Shown piece by piece: positions 10,748 to 50,937 of a stretch of 64,000 bases of DNA. Positions within the stretch are counted from its first letter, which is position 1, and the number at the start of each line of letters is the position of its first letter. Both the position numbers and the translations under genes were made by a program. This DNA is from Candidatus Nitrospira nitrificans (lineage in GTDB: Bacteria; Nitrospirota; Nitrospiria; Nitrospirales; Nitrospiraceae): positions 1 to 64,000 of the forward strand of contig NZ_CZPZ01000012.1 of NCBI RefSeq assembly GCF_001458775.1, in the 5' to 3' direction. The notes beneath the pieces are model-generated. The model made no database searches, was not told where the DNA came from, and worked only from the letters and a program-made list of their open reading frames with translations.

Positions 10748-11071
10748 CTAAAACAGGCCTGGAATTTTCATCCCGCCGGTCAACGCTTTCATTTCCCCTT
10801 CCATCAATTCCTTGGCTTTGCGCAACGCGTCGTTCGTCGCGGCCACCACAAGATCCTGGAGCATATCGACATCGCCGCTCTTGACGACCTCCGGGTCGAT
10901 CGCCACGCTGACAATCTGCATTGCCCCGTTCGCCGTGATGGTGACGATCCCGCCGCCGGCCGTCCCGCTGGCGGTTTTTGATGCCGCTTGCTCCTGAATC
11001 TTAGCCATTTGTTCCTGCATGGCCTGGGCTTGCTTGAGGATGTTGCTCATATTACCGAAGGGATTTTTCAT
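10748..11071 (-). CDS. YbaB/EbfC-family nucleoid-associated protein
   Basis: This 107-residue protein has the YbaB/EbfC layout. An N-terminal helix begins NMSNILKQAQAMQEQMAKIQ, the beta core follows (GIVTITANGAMQIVSVAID), and DALRKAKELMEGEM is in the C-terminal helix. Family members bind DNA as dimers and are commonly encoded between dnaX and recR, as here. Its start overlaps the dnaX stop by four bases. Confidence 0.94.
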   Translation of the reverse strand: MKNPFGNMSNILKQAQAMQEQMAKIQEQAASKTASGTAGGGIVTITANGAMQIVSVAIDPEVVKSGDVDMLQDLVVAATNDALRKAKELMEGEMKALTGGMKIPGLF

Positions 11072-12861
11072 TCGCTTGCCTCCTGCTGGGCTATAGTGCG
11101 GACCTCAGCCAAATCGACGCTGAATATCTCGAGGGCTTGCTTTATCATTGGGTTCGCTTTCGCGCGCTCGAACAACACCAGCCGTTGTTCTTGTTCTTTG
11201 GCTGCTCGTGCTTGGGCCATGGTCGGTCCCGGTGGATGGGTCTCAGTCAGCTCGATGATACGGATACGTATGGAAGACCCCAACTGACGCTCGCACAATT
11301 GTGATAACACCAGGAGGTTCTCTTCCTTCTCCAATCTCGCTCGGGCTACGGTGGCCTGCTTGGCAAATCCTATCGTGACGAAGCCACCCTCCATTCCAAC
11401 AAACCTGCCGGCTTCGAGAAACGGTGCGATATTGGGAAATGAAGCGGCAACCTCTTCTTGGACTACGTCCCACTGCAACGTCGGTTGTGGATCAACGGTT
11501 CTGGGAGGCACAGCAGTTGGGGTGGCTGTCGCCATAGCGGTCGGTGGATTGTGTGGGGACCTTGACGGGATCGCAGCCCCTTCATCTGTCTCCCCCTTGG
11601 AGGTGGGAGCAGGTTTAGAGATGGACCTTGACGCAACGGGCGCGCCCGGGCGTAACGCTGGGGGAGTTGATGACCCACTCTTGCGTTCTTCCGGTCTAAC
11701 CGGAGCTTTCTGGTTGGGAGATGACGAAGTCTGCGCCGGGCGGGCCCCCGTACTTTCTCGTTGGCGCAACAGTCGAGTGGCCCGAACAGCCGCCGTCTCC
11801 ACCACGAAGCGAGGGTGGCTGCTGAACCGTAAAGAATCTTCCGCCTGGATGAAGATTGCCAGCAGTTCCTGAAGCTGTTCCGGAGTCAGTACCTTGGCAT
11901 CCGTCGACAGCTGATTCAGATCATCATCCGAGGTTTCAATCAAGCTACGCAGCTCGGCCGTATCGGGAACGACCGCCGCCACGAGCAGATTACGGATGTG
12001 CTCCACGACTTCGGCGCAGAATGCCCGCAAGTCATGTCCTCGATCAAGCAGATTGGCCAGGCTGGCAAGAGCGGCAGGACTGTTTTGGGCCATAATAGCT
12101 CGGAGGAGTTCCTGTACCAGTTCTTGAGGCACGGCTCCCAACAGCAGTTCGAGATCCGCATGGCTGATGGTCTTACCCCCATAGGCAATCGCCTGATCAA
12201 GCAGGCTCAAGGCATCGCGCATGCTCCCTTCGCTGGCGCGAGCCAAGGCCACGAAGCTCCGTTCCTCAAGCGTCAAGTGATCTTGCGCTGCCACATGACG
12301 AAGTCGTTCGACGATTTCGGTCCTGGCAATCCGACGGAAGTTGTAATGCTGGCATCGCGAGAGAATCGTCGCGGGGATCTTGTGAATTTCCGTTGTCGCA
12401 AAGATGAACACCACATGTGCGGGCGGTTCTTCGAGCGTCTTCAATAGAGCATTAAACGCCGAGTTTGAGAGCATGTGCACTTCATCGATAATGTAGACTC
12501 GAAACTGGCCACGGAACGGAGTGAAGCGAACGTTTTCGCGGATCTCTCGCACATCATCCACGCTGGTGTTAGAGGCTCCATCGATCTCGATGACATCAAC
12601 CGAGCTTCCCTGCGCAATTTCACGGCAATTTTCGCAGGTGTCGCAAGGACGACTTGTCGGTCCCTGCTGACAGTTGAGTGCCTTGGCGAGGATTCGCGCG
12701 ACGGTCGTTTTCCCCACGCCTCGCGTGCCGGAAAAGAGATACGCATGGGCGACCCGCTTCGTCGAGACCGCGTTCATGAGCGTTTGGACGACATGGGGTT
12801 GACCGATCACATCGTCAAACGTGCCGGGCCGATATTTACGAGCGGAAACTTGATAGTCCAT
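11068..12861 (-). CDS. dnaX: DNA polymerase III subunits gamma/tau
   Basis: This 597-residue clamp-loader ATPase begins with the classic ARKYRPGTFDDVIGQPHVVQ. Walker A is FSGTRGVGKTT, a C4 zinc module follows (CQQGPTSRPCDTCENC), and Walker B is VYIIDEVHML. The SRC motif is in ATILSRCQHYNFRR. The C-terminal ~240 residues include a Pro/Ser/Thr-rich linker (about 365-450) and a terminal domain. I did not identify a clear programmed frameshift signal for a short gamma product. It is the first coding gene of the dnaX-ybaB-recR operon and sits just after the SRP RNA. Confidence 0.96.
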   Translation of the reverse strand: MDYQVSARKYRPGTFDDVIGQPHVVQTLMNAVSTKRVAHAYLFSGTRGVGKTTVARILAKALNCQQGPTSRPCDTCENCREIAQGSSVDVIEIDGASNTSVDDVREIRENVRFTPFRGQFRVYIIDEVHMLSNSAFNALLKTLEEPPAHVVFIFATTEIHKIPATILSRCQHYNFRRIARTEIVERLRHVAAQDHLTLEERSFVALARASEGSMRDALSLLDQAIAYGGKTISHADLELLLGAVPQELVQELLRAIMAQNSPAALASLANLLDRGHDLRAFCAEVVEHIRNLLVAAVVPDTAELRSLIETSDDDLNQLSTDAKVLTPEQLQELLAIFIQAEDSLRFSSHPRFVVETAAVRATRLLRQRESTGARPAQTSSSPNQKAPVRPEERKSGSSTPPALRPGAPVASRSISKPAPTSKGETDEGAAIPSRSPHNPPTAMATATPTAVPPRTVDPQPTLQWDVVQEEVAASFPNIAPFLEAGRFVGMEGGFVTIGFAKQATVARARLEKEENLLVLSQLCERQLGSSIRIRIIELTETHPPGPTMAQARAAKEQEQRLVLFERAKANPMIKQALEIFSVDLAEVRTIAQQEASE

Positions 12862-12878: not shown

Positions 12879-12932
12879 GCGTGAAACGTATCTCGTCAGT
12901 ATTTCTGATGCTTCACGAGATACTTCCTCAAA
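12879..12932. repeat. Palindromic repeat element (REP-like), intergenic copy
   Basis: Two perfect 9-base arms, GTATCTCGT (12888-12896) and ACGAGATAC (12915-12923), are separated by 18 bases and flanked by GTGAAAC on the arm-proximal side. On the minus strand this reads arm-loop-arm-GTTTCACG. The same arrangement, with one changed base per arm, appears inside the kinase genes at 35909-35957 and 38275-38322. It lies between the SRP RNA and dnaX. Confidence 0.55.
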
Positions 12933-12936
12933 GAGT

Positions 12937-13037
12937 GGGGCTAGGTGATCCTGCGGCACATAAAACTGACTGCTTACCGTTGCTTCCTTCCGGATCTGGC
13001 GGGGTTCACAGGGTTCTATTGCACAGGGCCCAGCCCC
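12937..13037 (-). ncRNA. ffs: Signal recognition particle RNA (4.5S type)
   Basis: On the minus strand the sequence runs from GGGGCTGGGCCC to CCTAGCCCC, so the ends pair. The apex contains the conserved SRP domain IV core CAGATCCGGAAGGAAGCA, the Ffh-binding loop found in essentially all bacterial SRP RNAs. The length of about 101 bases fits the short bacterial form. It lies directly upstream of dnaX on the same strand. The exact ends are estimated from the terminal pairing. Confidence 0.9.
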
Positions 13038-33904: not shown

Positions 33905-36331
33905 GTGACCACTCACCATCCGCCAGCGGTGTCTCCGCATCCTGAAATACGCGCCGGGGTTTCGCCCTTGCGTCGGACCATCACGGAGTACGCCTTGGCG
34001 GTCGTGATGACGCTCCTGGCCTTGTTGACAAGATCGGCGCTCGATCCGGCGCTAGGGGACCACTTTCCGTATATCTCATTCTATATCGCAGTCGCCGTCA
34101 CGGCGTGGTTTGGAGGATTGGGACCGTCCTTGACGGCGATGGCGCTGGGGGGACTGGCCTCACAGTGGTACCTCGTGCCGCCGCGCGAGTCGTTGGCGAT
34201 TACGGAACCGATGCACCAGATCGGGTACCTGACCTATTTTGGGGTCTGTTTGGTCGTTGTGGGAATCGCCCAGGCGCGACGAACGGCTCAACTGCGGGCG
34301 GAAGCGGCGCTCGTGGACCTGCGCCATGAACTCTTCGAGCGCAAGCAAGCGGAGGCGAATCTGCGCGAGAGCGACGCGCGCTTCCGCGCCCTGGCCGACG
34401 CGGCGCCGGCGCTCATTTGGATCAACGGGCCTCAGGGGGCGGAATTCGTCAACCGTACCTATCTGGAGTTCTTGGGGGCGAATCCACCGGATATTCAAGC
34501 CTATGAATGGGCGCAATTCGTTCATCCGGACGACCGGAAGCGCTACCTTGACGGGTATCTGCAGGCCGTCGATCGGCGAGCGGTCTTCGACGCCGAATTT
34601 CGATTCCGCCGGCACGACGGCGAGTGGCGCTGGATGCGATCGGTCGCTCGACCGCGCATGAGCGAGCAAGGCGCGTTCCTCGGCTACGCAGGCGTGACCA
34701 TCGATATCACCGAGCGCAAGCGGACGGAAGAGGCCCTAATCGCAAGCGAACGGCGCTTCTCGATGTTCATGCGGAACCTACCGGGCCTGGCCTGGCTGAA
34801 AGACGCGGAGGGTCGATATTGCTATGTGAATGAAGCGGCCCAGCGCGTGTTCGGCAGACCCGCGGAGGATCTGTACGGCAAGACCGACAAAGAACTGTTT
34901 TCGACCGAGGCGGCTGAACAGTTCATCAAGCATGACAAGGAAGCCTTGGCCGGCTCGAACGGCATCCAAACGGTGGAGATTTTGGAACATGCGGACGGGA
35001 GACACTTTTCGCTTGTCACGAAGTTTCCGATTCACACGGGTCTCGGAGGGATGCCGCTGGTCGGCGGCATCGGGATCGACATTACGGATCGCATTCGATT
35101 TGAACAGGAATTGAAAACCAGCCAGGAGCGGCTTCAGATCTTGACCGACAAGCTGGAGCAGCTGGTGGACGAACGGACACATGAACTGGTGCAGTCCCGC
35201 GACCAACTGCGCTGTTTGGCGACGGAGCTGAATCTTGCGGAACAACGGGAACGCAAGAGGCTGGCGACCGAATTGCACGACCACTTGCAACAGACGTTGG
35301 TGCTGGGAAGGTTGAAAATGGGGCAAGGTAAACGGTGTGCGGTCGAGATGCCGGCGATGGCCAAGATACTCGAGGAAACGGATGCCGTCTTCTGCGAGGC
35401 GCTGAAGTATACCCGCACTCTCGTGGCCGAACTCAGCCCGCCGGTGCTGCGCGATCATGGCCTGGCCGCCGGGTTGAAATGGCTGGCCGAGTACATGAAG
35501 AAACACGAGATGTCGGTCGCCGTGACCGTGCCGGATACGGACAACGTGCGGTTGCCGGACGATCAGGCGGTGTTGCTGTTTCAATCCGTCCGCGAACTGC
35601 TCATCAACTCTTCCAAACATGCCGGGACCGGAACGGCGACGGTCTTGATGGAGCAGGAACATGGGCGCATTCGAATCGTCGTCCGCGATGAGGGGAAGGG
35701 CTTCGATCTTGCCGGCGCGGCGGGAGGTCACAGCGGCACGAGCGCCCCGAAGTTCGGCCTCTTCAGCATCCGGGAGCGCATGCGGGCGCTGGGCGGCTCG
35801 TTCGAGATTCAATCGGCACCAGGGAAGGGCACCATGGCCGTGCTGAGCTTACCGTTGGCTGTCTCCCTCAAGAGAGGAGACAACATGTCGACACCTCCCT
35901 CGTGGCTTGTCTCTCGTATTTCGCACGCGAACGACGCTTCACGAGAGACGTTTCACGGTCATCGCATTCATGTCTTGTTGGTGGATGATCACGTCATGAT
36001 CCGGCAGGGATTACGCGCGGTGCTCGACAACTATCCCGATATCGAGGTGGTGGGCGAAGCGGCCAACGGCGAAGAAGCCATACGCCTGGTGGACACATTG
36101 CGACCGGCGGCGGTGATCATGGACATCAATATGCCGACGATGGACGGCATTGAGGCGACGGAACAGATCACGCGCCGCTATCCGGAGACGATCGTCATTG
36201 GACTCTCGGTGAACGCCGCCGAAGAGAATGAAAAGGCGATGAAGCGGGCGGGGGCCGTCGGGCTCATGAAGAAGGAATCGGCGGTCGAGCAACTGTACAG
36301 CGCCATCGTGGAGGCGGTGAAGAAAGGGTAG
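33905..36331 (+). CDS. Hybrid sensor kinase with HisKA_3 core and C-terminal NarL-type receiver
   Basis: This 808-residue protein starts at GTG with GAGG upstream. An N-terminal DUF4118-like membrane region (about 25-110, ALDPALGDHFPYISFYIAVA) is followed by two PAS domains (about 140-265 and 275-395). The HisKA_3 domain has LATELHDHLQQ with His458. HATPase_c spans about 550-655. A linker of about 30 residues made from a palindromic repeat leads into a receiver (about 680-808) with LLVDDH and Asp740 in MDINMP. There is no helix-turn-helix. Three paralogs follow within 17 kb. Confidence 0.9.
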   Translation: MTTHHPPAVSPHPEIRAGVSPLRRTITEYALAVVMTLLALLTRSALDPALGDHFPYISFYIAVAVTAWFGGLGPSLTAMALGGLASQWYLVPPRESLAITEPMHQIGYLTYFGVCLVVVGIAQARRTAQLRAEAALVDLRHELFERKQAEANLRESDARFRALADAAPALIWINGPQGAEFVNRTYLEFLGANPPDIQAYEWAQFVHPDDRKRYLDGYLQAVDRRAVFDAEFRFRRHDGEWRWMRSVARPRMSEQGAFLGYAGVTIDITERKRTEEALIASERRFSMFMRNLPGLAWLKDAEGRYCYVNEAAQRVFGRPAEDLYGKTDKELFSTEAAEQFIKHDKEALAGSNGIQTVEILEHADGRHFSLVTKFPIHTGLGGMPLVGGIGIDITDRIRFEQELKTSQERLQILTDKLEQLVDERTHELVQSRDQLRCLATELNLAEQRERKRLATELHDHLQQTLVLGRLKMGQGKRCAVEMPAMAKILEETDAVFCEALKYTRTLVAELSPPVLRDHGLAAGLKWLAEYMKKHEMSVAVTVPDTDNVRLPDDQAVLLFQSVRELLINSSKHAGTGTATVLMEQEHGRIRIVVRDEGKGFDLAGAAGGHSGTSAPKFGLFSIRERMRALGGSFEIQSAPGKGTMAVLSLPLAVSLKRGDNMSTPPSWLVSRISHANDASRETFHGHRIHVLLVDDHVMIRQGLRAVLDNYPDIEVVGEAANGEEAIRLVDTLRPAAVIMDINMPTMDGIEATEQITRRYPETIVIGLSVNAAEENEKAMKRAGAVGLMKKESAVEQLYSAIVEAVKKG
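35875..35887 (+). promoter_or_regulatory. Internal Shine-Dalgarno and in-frame ATG before the receiver
   Basis: AGGAG (35875-35879) lies five bases before an in-frame ATG (35885) that begins MSTPPSWLVSRIS, directly upstream of the receiver domain. Translation from here would give a 148-residue free receiver. Equivalent MS-start segments occur in the paralogs at 38251, 46417 and near 50456, with a good site also at 46417. Confidence 0.5.
35909..35957 (+). repeat. Palindromic repeat element inside coding sequence
   Basis: GTCTCTCGT (35909-35917) and ACGAGAGAC (35941-35949) are perfect 9-base inverted arms with a 23-base loop, followed by GTTTCACG. The structure matches the intergenic copy at 12888. 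It encodes the kinase-receiver linker. A similar copy is at 38275-38322, and a partly decayed one at 46441-46490. Confidence 0.6.
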
Positions 36332-36507
36332 GCGACAAGTATCTTCCACCCCCCCGATCTTGATTAACCAGCGGAGCGTCTGGCAAGATTTCAGCTCAGA
36401 ACGAACCGGTCGGTCATTTCGATGAAACCTTCACCCAGACCCATACTGCGTAAGTCCCGCAGGCGCGCCATGGCGCGTTGCAGAGTTTGAACGGTGACCA
36501 TGGGACG

Positions 36508-38724
36508 ATGATTTACCTCGAACCGGGCTTCGAAGAAACGAATAAGCAATCGCCGACCGAACAGGATGCGCTCTCGGCGCGCGTGGAATCGGAGGCGAGA
36601 CTCTTCGAGCCAGGCCAGGCGCTGCCTGATGAGTCGGGCTCGTTGAAGCCGCGCCCGGCGCTTGATCAAGAGACGGAACAGCCGGACGACGCGCTGCGCA
36701 AAAGCGAAAAACGCTTCCGCGACATGATTGACGCCCTGCCGGTGGCGATCTACACCACCGACGCCCAAGGTCGGCTCACACACTTTAATTCGGCAGCCGT
36801 GGAATTCTCCGGCCGCACACCCAAGCTCGGCACCGACGAGTGGTGCGTGAGTTGGAAACTCTATCACCCCGACGGCACCCCGATGCCGCACGACGAATGT
36901 CCGATGGCCGTCGCGCTGAAGGAGGGCCGCATTGTGCGCGGCGTGGAGGCGATTGCCGAGCGGCCCGACGGCACGCGCCTCTGGTTCACGCCTTATCCCA
37001 CTCCGTTGCGTGATGCCGACGGGAGGATTGTCGGCGGCATCAACATGCTCATGGACATCACCGAGCGAAAGCGGGACGAAGATGTGAAAGCCAAACTCGC
37101 CGCGATCGTCGAATCGTCCGATGACGCCATTGTGAGCAAAAACCTCAATGGGATCATTACCAGTTGGAACCGAGGAGCCGAGCGCATCTTCGGCTACACG
37201 GCGCAAGAAGCGATCGGGCAGCCGGTGACCATGCTCATGCCTCCGGACCGGGTGAATGAAGAGCCGAGCATTTTAATGCGCATCCGTCGCGGCGAGAAGA
37301 TCGATCACTACGAAACCATCCGTCGCCGCAAGGACGGCACATTGCTGGACGTTTCACTGACCGTTTCTCCTCTTATCGATACGCACGGACGGGTCATCGG
37401 CGCCTCGAAAATCGCGCGGGACATCACCGAGCGTATCCGGGCGGAAGAGACGTTGCGGGAGGCGCAACTGCGCTTGCAACGGTGGAATGTGGAGTTGGAG
37501 CAGGCGGTGAGCGTCAAGACCGTCGAACTGCTCCACTCTCAAGATCGGCTCCGTGCGTTGACCACGGAGTTGAACCTGACCGAGCAGCGAGAACGAGCGC
37601 GCTTGGCCACTGAGTTGCACGACCATCTGCAGCAAATGCTTGTTCTGGCGAAACTCAAGCTCGGCCAAGGCAAACGGAGGTCGGAAGAGATGGTGCCGGC
37701 GGTGGTCACGTTGATGCAGGAGACCGACGAGGTGTTGTCCGACGCCTTGAAATATACCCGTACGCTGGTGACCGAATTGAGCCCGTCCGTGTTGCGCGAC
37801 CATGGGTTACCCGCCGGACTCAAGTGGCTGGGCGAGTACATGCAGAAGCACGATGTGACCGTGACGGTCACCGCGCCGGACGAAGCGCTGATGTTGCCGG
37901 AGGATCAAGGCGTTCTCTTGTTCCAGTCGGTGCGGGAATTGCTGATCAATTCGTCCAAACATGCGGGGACCGGAGCGGCGGCCGTGGCGATGGAACATCG
38001 CGACGGCATGCTGAGAATCGAGGTCCGCGATGAAGGCGCGGGCTTCGATCTTGCCGCTGTCGCTGTCGCTGTCGCCGCGGCTGCCGGCGAAACCTCCGGC
38101 GGAGGCGTGTCTTCCAAGTTCGGCCTCTTCAGCATCCGGGAGCGCATGCGGGCATTGGGCGGCTCATTCGAGATTCAATCGGCACCAGGGAAGGGCACCA
38201 CGGCCGTGCTGAGCTTGCCGTCGGCCGCCTCCATCGAGAGAAGAGACAACATGTCGGCGCCTCCCTCGCCGCTTGTCTCTCGTATTTCACACGCGAACGA
38301 CGCTTTACGAGAGACGTTTCACGGTCATCGCATTCGTGTCTTGTTGGTGGATGACCACGTCATGATCCGGCAGGGATTGCGCGCGGTGCTCGACAACTAT
38401 CCCGATATCGAGGTGGTGGGCGAAGCGACCAACGGCGAGGAGGCGGTGCGGTTGGTGGACCAGTTACGCCCCTTAGTGGTGGTGATGGACATCAACATGC
38501 CGACGATGAACGGCATCGAAGCCACCGCCCGGATAAAAAGCCGGTTTCACAAGACCGTAGTGATCGGGCTCTCGGTCAATGCGGAAGCCGACAATCGCGA
38601 CGCCATGACGCGCGTCGGCGCCGTCACGCTGCTGACCAAGGAAGCGGCCATGGAAACGCTCTATGACGCCATTCGCCGCGTCATCCCGAAAAAGGTTCGG
38701 CAACCGCAAAGCATTGACGCGTGA
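36508..38724 (+). CDS. Cytoplasmic PAS-HisKA_3 kinase with C-terminal receiver
   Basis: This 738-residue protein starts at ATG 36508; a TTG at 36478 would add ten residues. It has no membrane segment. Two PAS domains (about 70-185 and 200-325) precede HisKA_3 with LATELHDHLQQ (His371) and HATPase_c. The receiver follows a palindrome-derived linker and contains LLVDDHVMIRQG and VVMDINMPTMNG. In the ATP lid, three copies of GCTGTC encode AVAVAV. From the HisKA_3 domain on it is closely similar to the preceding kinase, so the pair arose by duplication with different sensory halves. Confidence 0.88.
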   Translation: MIYLEPGFEETNKQSPTEQDALSARVESEARLFEPGQALPDESGSLKPRPALDQETEQPDDALRKSEKRFRDMIDALPVAIYTTDAQGRLTHFNSAAVEFSGRTPKLGTDEWCVSWKLYHPDGTPMPHDECPMAVALKEGRIVRGVEAIAERPDGTRLWFTPYPTPLRDADGRIVGGINMLMDITERKRDEDVKAKLAAIVESSDDAIVSKNLNGIITSWNRGAERIFGYTAQEAIGQPVTMLMPPDRVNEEPSILMRIRRGEKIDHYETIRRRKDGTLLDVSLTVSPLIDTHGRVIGASKIARDITERIRAEETLREAQLRLQRWNVELEQAVSVKTVELLHSQDRLRALTTELNLTEQRERARLATELHDHLQQMLVLAKLKLGQGKRRSEEMVPAVVTLMQETDEVLSDALKYTRTLVTELSPSVLRDHGLPAGLKWLGEYMQKHDVTVTVTAPDEALMLPEDQGVLLFQSVRELLINSSKHAGTGAAAVAMEHRDGMLRIEVRDEGAGFDLAAVAVAVAAAAGETSGGGVSSKFGLFSIRERMRALGGSFEIQSAPGKGTTAVLSLPSAASIERRDNMSAPPSPLVSRISHANDALRETFHGHRIRVLLVDDHVMIRQGLRAVLDNYPDIEVVGEATNGEEAVRLVDQLRPLVVVMDINMPTMNGIEATARIKSRFHKTVVIGLSVNAEADNRDAMTRVGAVTLLTKEAAMETLYDAIRRVIPKKVRQPQSIDA

Positions 38725-43632: not shown

Positions 43633-43636
<4 letters not shown>
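42776..43636 (+). CDS. CheR-type methyltransferase
   Basis: This 286-residue protein has the CheR fold. The N-terminal helical domain (ALYQAYEYDFRGYAKPSITRRL) precedes the SAM-binding domain with VWVAGCGAGEELYSLAI, ATDVDADALRKAEAGVYG, and HLISCRNVLIYF. CheR normally methylates glutamates on chemoreceptors, but no receptor, CheB or CheW gene is in this window. Its stop overlaps the start of the next kinase gene by four bases (ATGA), so the two are translationally coupled. ATG 42776 has GGAG upstream; a GTG at 42758 is also possible. Confidence 0.88.
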
Positions 43637-46863
<3,227 letters not shown>

Positions 46864-47300: not shown

Positions 47301-50300
47301 ATGAATTCAACCGCGAGTGAGAACCGAGATGCGCCCATGAGCGATCAGGAGAGGAGCCGTCACAGGGGGAACCAGTCCGAGTGCTGGCTCATCGGTGGCG
47401 GCGAAATGGGCGACCTGGTGCGCGCCAAGGACTGGTCACACACGCCGCTGGGACCGATCGAGTCCTGGCCGCAGAGCCTGCGGACGACGGTGAGTCTGTG
47501 TCTCGCCTCCAATTTTCCCATTTCCATCGCTTGGGGGCCGCAACGCGTGCAAATCTACAACGACGGCTACTGGCCGATCTGCGCCGCCAAACATCCCCGG
47601 TCGATGGGGCAAGACTTCAAAGAATGCTGGCTCTCCGCCTGGCCGGTCATCGGCGATGCGTTCGAGCGCGCCTCCAACGGCGAAACCTGTTTTCTCGTCA
47701 ACCAGCGGATGTTCCTCGACCGTCTGGGCTACCTGGAAGAAACCTTCTTCACGTTTTCCTTCAGCCCCATCAGGGATGAATCGGGGCGGCATCGGCGGCC
47801 TGTTCCATCCGGTGACGGAGTTGACCCAGCAGTCGCTCGCGGAGCGGCGGTTGCGGGTGTTGCGCGATCTTGCCGACCGGAGCGCGACCGCGACATCCAT
47901 CGACGAGGGGTTGGCGGTGATCGCTCACACGTTGGAAGCAAGCGAGCTGGATGTGCCGTTCGCCCTGTTCTATCGCCTGGACTCAGAGGGCAAATCCGCG
48001 CGGCGAGTCGCGCTGGTGGGGTTGCAACCGGGATCGGCCTTGGCGCCGGATCGCATCCACTTGGATGTGTCCGGCGAGGCGTCCTGGCCGCTGGCCAAGG
48101 CGCAGGCCGCCGGTGAATCGCTCATGGTCGGGGATCTCGCCAGGCGGTTTGGGCCGTTTCAGTGCCGGCCCTACGACGAAGCGCCGCATTCAGGGATCGT
48201 CCAGCCCATTCTTCTGCCGGGGCTCACGCAGCCCTTCGGCTTTCTGGTGACCGGCGTCAGCTCCCGCCGTCCGTTGGACGAACCCTACCGCACCTTCCAC
48301 GACATGCTCGGCGAGGCCGCGGGTAACGCATTGGCCAAGGCTCGCGCCTATGAAGAAGAACGCAAGCGCGCCGAAGCGCTGGCCGAACTGGACCGCGTCA
48401 AGACGGTGTTCTTTTCCAACGTGAGCCATGAATTCCGCACGCCGCTCACGCTGATGCTCGGGCCGCTGGAGGATGCGCTGGCTCACGCCCATGGCATTCT
48501 CCCCCCTGGTGCGGCCCAGGACTTGGAGACTTCCCATAGGAACGCCCTCCGCCTCCTGAAGCTCGTCAATACCATGTTGGATTTTTCCCGCATCGAAGCC
48601 GGGCGCATTCAGGCTTCGTACCATCCGACCGATCTGGCCTCCTTGACCGCGGAGCTCGCCAGTAACTTCCGGTCGGCCTGCGAAAAGGCCGGTTTGCGGC
48701 TCGTCATCGATTGCCTGCCGCTCTCCGAACCGGTCTATGTCGATCGCGACATGTGGGAGAAGATCGTGCTGAACCTCATCTCGAACGCGTTCAAGTTCAC
48801 GTTGGATGGGGAAATTGAAGTGAGCTTAAAAGAAGTGGGCAGCGGGCGGTGGGTCGTGGATAGTGATGAGCGGGAGGGGAAAAGCGATGGCATCATGCTG
48901 CGCGTTAGAGACACCGGCGTCGGCATTCCATCGGATGAATTGCCGCGCATGTTCGAGCGATTTCACCGCGTTGAACGCAGTCGCGGGCGTACGCATGAAG
49001 GCACGGGCATCGGTCTGGCGCTCGTGCAGGAACTCGTGAAGCTCCATGGCGGCACTGTGCAGGTGGACAGCATCTTCGGTAAGGGAAGCGCATTCACGGT
49101 GACGATCCCGTTCGGTAACGCCCATTTGCCGGAGGACCGTATCAACGCCGGCCGCACCTTGGCCTCCACGGCCACCGGCGCCGCGCCCTTCGTGGAAGAA
49201 GCGCTGCGATGGATGCCCGAAAACAGTCTATCCGGTCTCTCTGGTCTATCTCGTGTACCTGGTGACCAGACAGACCGAATAGACAAGGCAGATTTCGGCA
49301 CCATCCGTCCCCGCGTGCTCGTGGTCGAGGATAATGCCGACATGCGCGAGTATCTCCGCCGGCTTCTGAACCGGAACTACGACGTTGAAGCCGTGGCGGA
49401 TGGGCAGGTCGCTCTGCAGCGGATTCAGGCTGACCTGCCCGACCTCGTGCTCTCCGACGTGATGATGCCGAGGCTGGATGGCTTCGGGTTGCTGCGCGCG
49501 CTGCGGGACGATCCCGCGACAAAGACGATCCCGGTTATTTTGCTGTCGGCGCGGGCCGGCGAAGAATCGCGGGTCGAGGGGCTGGGGCAGGGCGCCGATG
49601 ACTATCTCACCAAGCCCTTCAGCGCCCGGGAATTGCTGGCGCGCGTCGAGGCGCACATTCGGCTCCAGCGTGTCCGCCGCGAGGCCGAAGCGCGGCTCCG
49701 TTCGCTTGCCGGGCGGCTAGAAAGCTTAGTGAAGGAACGCACGCAGGAACTCGAACAGTCGCGGGAACGACTGCGCGCGCTGGCGACCGAGCTCAATCTG
49801 GCCGAGCAGCGGGAGCGTAGACGGCTGGCGACGGAGCTGCATGACCATTTGCAACAAATGCTGGTGCTCGGAAAGCTCAAGCTCGGCCAAGGCAAACGAC
49901 TGGCGAACGTGGAACCCACAGCGGTCAAACTGATCAAGGAGACGGACGAGGTGTTATCGGATGCCTTGACCTATACCCGCACCATGGTGGCCGAGTTGAG
50001 CCCGCCGGTCTTGCGGGAGTTCGGGCTCTCGGCCGGACTCAAGTGGCTGGGTGAGTACATGAAGAAGCGCGAGCACAGGGTGGCCGTCGTTGTGCCGGAC
50101 AGCGGCGCTCTCAAATTGCCGGACGATCAAGTCATCCTATTGTTTCAATCCGTGCGCGAGTTGCTGATCAATTCATCGAAACATGCCGAGACCAGTGAAG
50201 CCAAGGTCACCATGGAACAGCGCGATGGAAATTTGTTCATCACCGTGAGTGATGAGGGGAAAGGCTTCGATCTTGCTGCTGCTCCTCCTGCTGAAGTGCC

Positions 50301-50937
50301 TAGTGGCGGCCTCTCATCCAAATATGGCCTGTATAGCATTCAGGAGAGGATGCTTGCGCTGGGCGGGTCGTTCGACATCCGCTCCGCGCCCGGCCAAGGC
50401 ACGACGGCCATGCTCAGTTTGCCGCTGTCGGGCCGTGCCGATGACGCCAGGGTAATGAGCGCCGACCCGCCGGAGGTTCGGCCGTCGGTCCGCCTGGACG
50501 AGCCCGCGAGGCGAGCACCGAAGGCTCGGCAGCCGGTGAAACGAAAAGGGGTGAAAACGGTGCAGGTCTTGTTGGTCGACGATCATGAAATGATCCGACA
50601 AGGATTGCGGATGGTCCTGGAAAGCTACAACGACGTGACCATCGTGGGGGAAGCCGTGAACGGTGAAGAGGCGCTGGCGGCGGTCGAGAAGCTTCGTCCC
50701 GATGTCGTGATCATGGATATCAACATGCCGAGGATGAACGGCATCGAAGCGACGGGGCGGATCAAGCATCGGTATCCGGAGACGGCCGTGATCGGATTGT
50801 CGATGAACATGAGAGAAGCGGATCGACAGGCCATGAGGCAGGCCGGAGCCGTCCATCTGATGACGAAGGAATCGGCGGTCGAACAACTGTATGACGCTAT
50901 TCAAGAGGCCATGAAGAATAGGGAACCGGCGGGCTAG
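47301..50937 (+). pseudogene. Double histidine kinase with two receivers, frameshifted
   Basis: The N-terminal PAS-like domain (WSHTPLGPIESWPQSLR, ETFFTFSFSPIRDESG) is in one frame to about 47783, and GIGGLFHPVTEL continues in the next. One extra G in the run at 47783-47786 explains this. Repaired, the product would be about 1,210 residues: PAS, GAF, HisKA (NVSHEFRTPLTL), HATPase_c, receiver (VLVVEDNADMREY), then a second module, HisKA_3 (LATELHDHLQQ) with HATPase_c, and a final receiver (VLLVDDHEMIRQG). A strong palindrome at 49226-49284 lies in the first linker. Either a real mutation or a base-calling error. Confidence 0.8.
49226..49284 (+). repeat. Long palindromic element inside the double kinase
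   Basis: Two 21-base arms (49226-49246 and 49264-49284) are complementary at 19 of 21 positions, with a 17-base loop. The left arm begins GTCTATCCGGTC and the right ends GACCGAATAGAC. It sits in frame between HATPase_c and the first receiver and encodes SLSGLSGLSRVPGDQTDRID. It differs in sequence from the element at 35909. Confidence 0.8.

Follow-up and report, generated by a model that had tools for sequence, protein, structure and literature searches.

Palindromic repeats that lie inside bacterial genes are established for intragenic REPs and for the Rickettsia palindromic elements, as set out in the accessible part of PMC3733652. The Rickettsia elements (Ogata et al. 2002; Claverie and Ogata 2003, as cited there) occur between genes and in frame in functionally unrelated genes; RPE-4 and RPE-6 are short palindromes tagged with CGTC, RPE-1 is longer, and the accessible part of that article describes no mosaic of 7-base words (PMC3733652). 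It also reports that some REPs of the GTAG/CGTC type lie inside open reading frames (ORFs), and that in recB of two Xanthomonas species different REPs occupy approximately the same site (PMC3733652). The TAACTGA repeats of the Beggiatoaceae, according to the part of PMC4679880 that was accessible, are 7-base direct repeats, mostly intergenic, with some copies in ORFs, mostly at ORF ends. In-frame palindromes are thus already known, in Rickettsia and among REPs; neither a class of palindromes built from heptads nor the swapping of protein linkers was found in the literature searched, which included few subscription journals.

Here we describe in-frame palindromes in Candidatus Nitrospira nitrificans, in a stretch of 64,000 nucleotides (hereafter the window) that encodes four kinase-receiver hybrids (Table 1). 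The linker DNA concerned is, very probably, a translated copy of a mostly intergenic hairpin repeat made of 7-base words, which would have been captured in frame, tolerated there and spread among paralogues. An earlier note on this DNA had placed a palindrome with inverted arms at 35909, and its coordinates were right: the palindrome is exact over 35909-35957. Here and in hybrid 2 the arms read GTCTCTCGT-N23-ACGAGAGAC and are followed by GTTTCACG. Exact arm matches number two in the window, against a mean of 0.00 in 100 shuffles; GTTTCACG alone occurs eight times against 2.54 expected and, taken by itself, is weak evidence. The further copies that had been noted at 38275 and, decayed, at 46441 were both found, the decay at 46441 affecting the right arm. 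The element noted at 12888 does lie outside genes, with dnaX on one side and the SRP RNA gene on the other, and its arms do differ from those of the window kinases by one base each, with GTTTCACG adjoining on the minus strand; its spacer, however, is 18 nt against 23, so that arms and tail recur there but the 49-mer as a whole does not.

Table 1. Positions of the palindromic elements, the hybrid kinase genes and neighbouring features in the window.
Feature	Position	Strand	Remarks
dnaX	11068..12861	-	
Intergenic copy	12880..12923	-	arms GTATCTCGT/ACGAGATAC, GTTTCACG tail, 18-nt spacer
SRP RNA gene	12936..13035	-	
Hybrid 1, DUF4118-PAS-PAS-HisKA_3-HATPase_c-[linker]-Response_reg	33905..36331	+	808 aa
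Tract of raised DNA identity, hybrid 1 vs 2	35767..36086	+	contains the element
Shine-Dalgarno-like AGGAG and in-frame ATG	35875..35887	+	upstream of the element; read from sequence
In-frame heptad palindrome, 49 bp	35909..35957	+	kinase-receiver linker of hybrid 1
Hybrid 2, PAS-HisKA_3-HATPase_c-[linker]-Response_reg	36478..38724	+	748 aa
Shine-Dalgarno-like sequence and in-frame ATG	38236..38253		upstream of the element
In-frame palindrome copy in hybrid 2	38275..38323	+	47/49 bases identical to hybrid 1 copy
Hybrid 3, Response_reg-PAS(n)-HisKA_3-HATPase_c-[linker]-Response_reg	43633..46863	+	1076 aa
CTG/GCT triplet run in hybrid 3	46220..46255		alanine run near HATPase domain
Shine-Dalgarno-like sequence and in-frame ATG	46402..46419		upstream of the element
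Decayed in-frame copy in hybrid 3	46441..46489	+	left arm intact, right arm mutated
Hybrid 4, kinase-receiver hybrid	47656..50937	+	last linker without palindrome (empty paralogue)

Each of the three coding copies keeps the reading frame and lies between the HATPase_c and Response_reg domains. In an AlphaFold model of the fragment that starts at 35312, computed from a four-sequence alignment and with a mean pLDDT of 66, residues 184-216 score below 50, and the 49-bp element encodes residues 200-216; this part of the linker is predicted to be disordered, and it may be tolerated as a spacer. The AGGAG and ATG ahead of the element in hybrid 1 could be an internal start for a free receiver or the relic of a separate receiver gene; such sequences also stand upstream of the element in hybrids 2 and 3, where the Shine-Dalgarno-like sequence is weaker. 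The alanine run of hybrid 3 has a relative in an AVAVA stretch of hybrid 2.

The three window copies do not amount to three insertions. In 50-base blocks, hybrids 1 and 2 are 58-76% identical before 35767 (one block reaching 84%), 84-96% identical across 35767-36086 and less so again thereafter, while hybrid 3 shares part of this tract and has a second raised stretch further on. Because of this tract, the favoured reading of the copies is a single capture that would have spread by recombination, probably gene conversion, among the paralogues. The earlier note had allowed that the linkers might be a simple duplication of one insertion, which comes close to such a spread. In its strictest form, in which the linkers are alike only because the three paralogues go back to one hybrid and are unrelated to the intergenic repeats, duplication fits the end-to-end alignment of the three linkers, non-palindromic parts included, as well as the raised identity around the linkers of hybrids 1 and 2. 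It covers the window copies only, however, whereas the palindrome has further copies in this genome and in public records named Nitrospira, and as a full account it is contradicted by the intergenic copies and by the separate copy in CheB described below; we regard it as highly improbable.

When the whole genome (G000; 4.12 Mb in 36 contigs) was searched for the arm ACGAGANACGNTTCACG with up to two mismatches, 76 copies were found, against five for a reversed-pattern control. The palindrome, which the earlier note had expected to recur across the genome, is thus abundant, and under simple gene models of our own making (sampled stretches being 87% coding) its exact copies are mostly intergenic: 13 of 18, with one overlapping a gene end and four in called ORFs, two of these being the window kinases and two lying at ORF edges. 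One-mismatch arms (n = 20) comprise 12 intergenic, four overlapping gene ends and four in ORFs, and two-mismatch arms (n = 38) comprise 21, one and 16, respectively, many of the last 16 probably being chance matches. Homologues without the palindrome, likewise anticipated in the earlier note, exist both in hybrid 4 and among the hybrids of congeneric genomes.

The copies are strings of 7-base words, of the form NNNNACG rightward and its reverse complements leftward; words of the right arm include CTTCACG, AGATACG and AACGACG. The window element starts with GTCTCTCGT; other copies show CGTC inside an arm. Read by hand, CTTCACG and ACTCAGC (a word of related species, see below) are free of stops in every forward frame. 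With one TGA in the reverse complement of each, two of the three frames stay open through a short left arm. A second family, AAGTTTC/GAAACTT, has 223 matches in the genome (control, 1). GAAACTT outnumbers the ACG family in this genome (223 vs 89 matches), and yet the three kinase linkers of the window hold ACG words, so that abundance alone does not predict which family a linker holds, and the same is true for CheB. A heptad family of the TGACTGG/TGACTAT type was also seen in gaps between called genes of this genome (L020, L032, L412).

A search of the genome for a dedicated transposase found none. The only Y1_Tnp match lies at C10:88009, its 3.3-kb locus shows no arm, and the contig has one listed arm, at C10:80459; with a single such match and no element beside it, mobilization by a RAYT was rejected. 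The description of the element as REP-like therefore holds in so far as it is a short, many-copy, mainly extragenic palindrome, and fails in that the copies are mosaics of 7-base words with no RAYT link found. No target-site duplication was found either, and no empty site was precise enough to show one.

Among the public matches listed, the nearest copy outside this genome agrees at 45 of 49 bases and belongs to a record named Nitrospira (L093), followed by one at 44 of 49 (L126); both lie outside genes, the former upstream of, and not inside, what we take to be the start of nuoL. In the same set of matches the core occurs mainly in records named Nitrospira, and also in metagenome-assembled genomes (MAGs) named as Omnitrophota, Latescibacterota, relatives of Planctomycetota and others, where single matches can be chance but many are ringed by further words. 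CTTCACG and AGATACG words were noted in L073, L078, L092, L107, L142 and other loci from MAGs named as other phyla. The DNA beside two elements of the window's genome resembles that beside elements in records named Nitrospira (L010 and L114; L015 and L094). Across the loci of this public contig scan, eight of 128 matches (three of them in one locus) fall in ORFs of at least 250 aa with 60 aa on each side; most of the eight ORFs look spurious by eye, and coding copies in other phyla are not claimed.

A search of 79 congeneric genomes gave 109 close kinase-receiver matches in 26 genomes (E up to 1e-60). A motif search of the retrieved loci, some of them obtained outside this search, gave 86 different fused linkers, including four from the window; some matches yielded none. 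The identity of linker DNA to itself at a lag of seven bases is 0.343, against 0.261 when shuffled (z 18.7), with further excess at lags 14 (z 12.9) and 21 (z 6.7), whereas 171 flanking segments have a lag-7 identity of 0.232 and no 7-base period; the period is not given by codon structure. When single linkers were tested for heptads against codon shuffles at a 5% false discovery rate, 42 of these related, non-independent rows passed and 44 failed, and none of the flanks passed (0/85 upstream, 0/86 downstream). Hybrids 1 and 2 pass clearly and hybrid 3 marginally. Exact inverted arms exceed shuffles (p <0.05) in 20 of the 86.

The words differ from genome to genome: ACGAGAG/CTTCACG in the window's genome, ACTCAGC in G016, G040, G084 and others, and CTCAACG with CCTCGGC in G060. 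For two of these words the family matches the genome. CTCAACG, which sits in G060 linkers, has 28 matches in that genome, some of them outside linkers, and at most two in each of nine others; ACTCAG has 142 matches in G040 (control 31) and 74 in G016 (control 14), is abundant also in G084, and has one in G000 (control 1) and none in G060. On the hybrid tree, which is weakly resolved (stars on 20 of its 79 inner branches), the linker labels need 34 changes against a shuffled mean of 39.0. Linker lengths of palindrome-bearing and palindrome-free hybrids overlap (31-77 residues in the segments used), so that for the window kinases no empty site with sharply defined ends was seen.

A hairpin might also be kept for a role in the mRNA, such as pausing of the ribosome between domains or the start of a free receiver. 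Compared with codon-shuffled versions, the heptad linkers of the hybrids show better folding (mean z -2.29, 22/42 under -2), those of CheB do so to a smaller degree (mean z -1.18, 9/30 under -2), and a Shine-Dalgarno-like sequence with ATG precedes the element. Yet the median predicted folding energy, -38.2, is no stronger than that of the flanking coding DNA (-38.9 and -38.1), folding is weak in all three linkers of the window (z -1.6, -1.1 and -0.8) and 44 of the 86 linkers have no heptad signal. An mRNA role thus seems decidedly unlikely, and with energies not above those of the flanks a pause hairpin as the main function was rejected.

In the CheB gene of the window's genome, the receiver-methylesterase linker holds the same family as the window kinases in frame, a capture separate from that of the kinases; the encoded linker is of SRFTND type, against SRISHAND type in the kinases. 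CheB matches at E up to 1e-70 are present in 63 of the 79 genomes; 50 loci out of 77 listed matches were examined and 46 linkers recovered, four loci being missed by the motif. Thirty of the 46 linkers pass the heptad test and 16 fail, while none of the 46 flanks passes (one reaches p <0.05), the flanks being 72 nt long and so giving the test less power. Labelled by eye, seven linkers are ACG, nine CCTTACC, four AAGTTTC, six TCACCTC and 20 none or other, six of these last nonetheless passing the test. In G041 and G022, both poor in the ACG and AAGTTTC families, the CheB linkers belong to no named family, though one of them (L464, from G022) passes weakly. For the intergenic site 5' of cheB, six of 19 loci reaching far enough were significant, a result too mixed for a heptad claim, which was dropped.

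The conserved flanks of CheB allow linkers to be compared between close orthologues, and families change between orthologues whose flanks are 95-98% identical. L419 (ACG) and L440 (AAGTTTC) agree at 928 of 951 flank positions (97.6%) and have unlike linkers; the flanks of L438 and L443 agree at 919 of 963. On a tree of the flanks the linker labels, assigned partly by eye, change 18 times, where four is the least possible and 23.7 the shuffled mean; the well-supported (starred) branches alone force only three to six changes per named family. Between L444 and L429 the same array differs by three words (21 nt), and the array of L421 is 21 nt shorter than that of L419. Some arrays are nearly pure head-to-tail repeats (CCCTTAC in L429), and elsewhere mixed words and inverted arms are found.

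These orthologues bear on a further explanation, that the kinase linker is a former intergenic spacer, the palindrome having stood between a kinase gene and a receiver gene that fused when the kinase stop was lost. The Shine-Dalgarno-like sequence and ATG within the window linkers would fit such a history, as would short linkers such as that of L251, which retain AAAGGACGGTCCATG directly before the receiver, and a CTCAACG palindrome in G060 (L475) that spans the stop codon ending a histidine kinase frame. A separate-gene ancestor with the same element was not found for the window kinases, however, and fusion leaves unexplained both the changes of family between CheB orthologues with near-identical flanks and the elements in CheB, CheA and an MCP tether, each of which is one open gene here. 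Since receiver and methylesterase form one open frame in all 46 CheB orthologues examined, a spacer origin is a serious contender for the kinases and not for CheB; overall we hold it to be possible, though less than probable.

The other captures belong to the second family: AAGTTTC/GAAACTT occurs in frame in an MCP, in the C-terminal tether ahead of a C-terminal EFEEF, and in the linker of CheA (L384:2435-5104 and L384:6808-8979, contig C1 of G000). Together with CheB, these cases come from loci that had been fetched for a nearby arm. When whole genes were scanned, the top heptad window coincided with the linker or tether in CheA (z 9.1), the MCP (z 7.7) and CheB (z 6.9), and with the linker in hybrids 1 and 2 (z 4.4 and 4.1); in hybrid 3 no window exceeded the threshold, and hybrid 4 has a weaker one elsewhere. 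In an unbiased lag-7 scan of 176 kb of the genome, four of 151 called genes and two of 80 gaps reached a score of 40, against zero to two genes and no gaps at five control lags; one gene match (L414) may precede the true start, and the window's own elements fell below the listing threshold. The small number of genes points to coding captures being rare genome-wide at that threshold.

The reading that we favour is therefore that of a class of hairpins, built of degenerate 7-base words, whose copies would land in frame between protein domains by insertion and be tolerated, perhaps neutrally, because the stretch that they encode is an unstructured spacer. One element would have been captured in a window kinase-receiver linker and then passed to neighbouring paralogues by recombination; similar captures would account for CheB, CheA and the MCP tether, and other word families for the linkers of related species, which were apparently exchanged as whole cassettes. 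A stronger version, in which entire cassettes of heptad palindromes are actively exchanged at the same codons, renewing interdomain linkers throughout the genus, seems rather unlikely to us. If it were true, it would explain near-identical CheB proteins with unrelated linkers, and the palindromes would be an agent of linker diversification and not passive insertions. More generally, mostly intergenic repeats appear to feed protein evolution, several palindrome families having come to serve as spacers in signalling proteins, seemingly on more than one occasion. With its conserved flanks and exchanged linkers, the CheB set amounts to a natural experiment on the movement of such elements and the requirements of a linker. 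The heptad-mosaic palindromes form a repeat class seen in Nitrospira-named records and in MAGs that bear the names of several other phyla.

Among described systems, REPs and REPINs resemble these elements in being short, high-copy, mostly intergenic palindromes, some of which lie within ORFs; they differ in their association with a RAYT, whereas here the build is a heptad mosaic and the sole Y1 transposase match has no such arm beside it. The TAACTGA repeats of the Beggiatoaceae share the 7-base unit and the mostly intergenic location but, as far as the accessible part of PMC4679880 describes them, consist of one word in direct orientation with one indirect case; the Nitrospira elements mix words, form inverted arms, comprise several families per genus and lie in interdomain linkers. 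The closest likeness is to the Rickettsia palindromic elements, to which the present case is a counterpart in an unrelated lineage: in both, in-frame copies occur in unrelated proteins (here the kinase hybrids and CheB) alongside intergenic ones, and by description the Nitrospira captures stand apart in lying in the linkers of signalling proteins and in differing in family between close orthologues.
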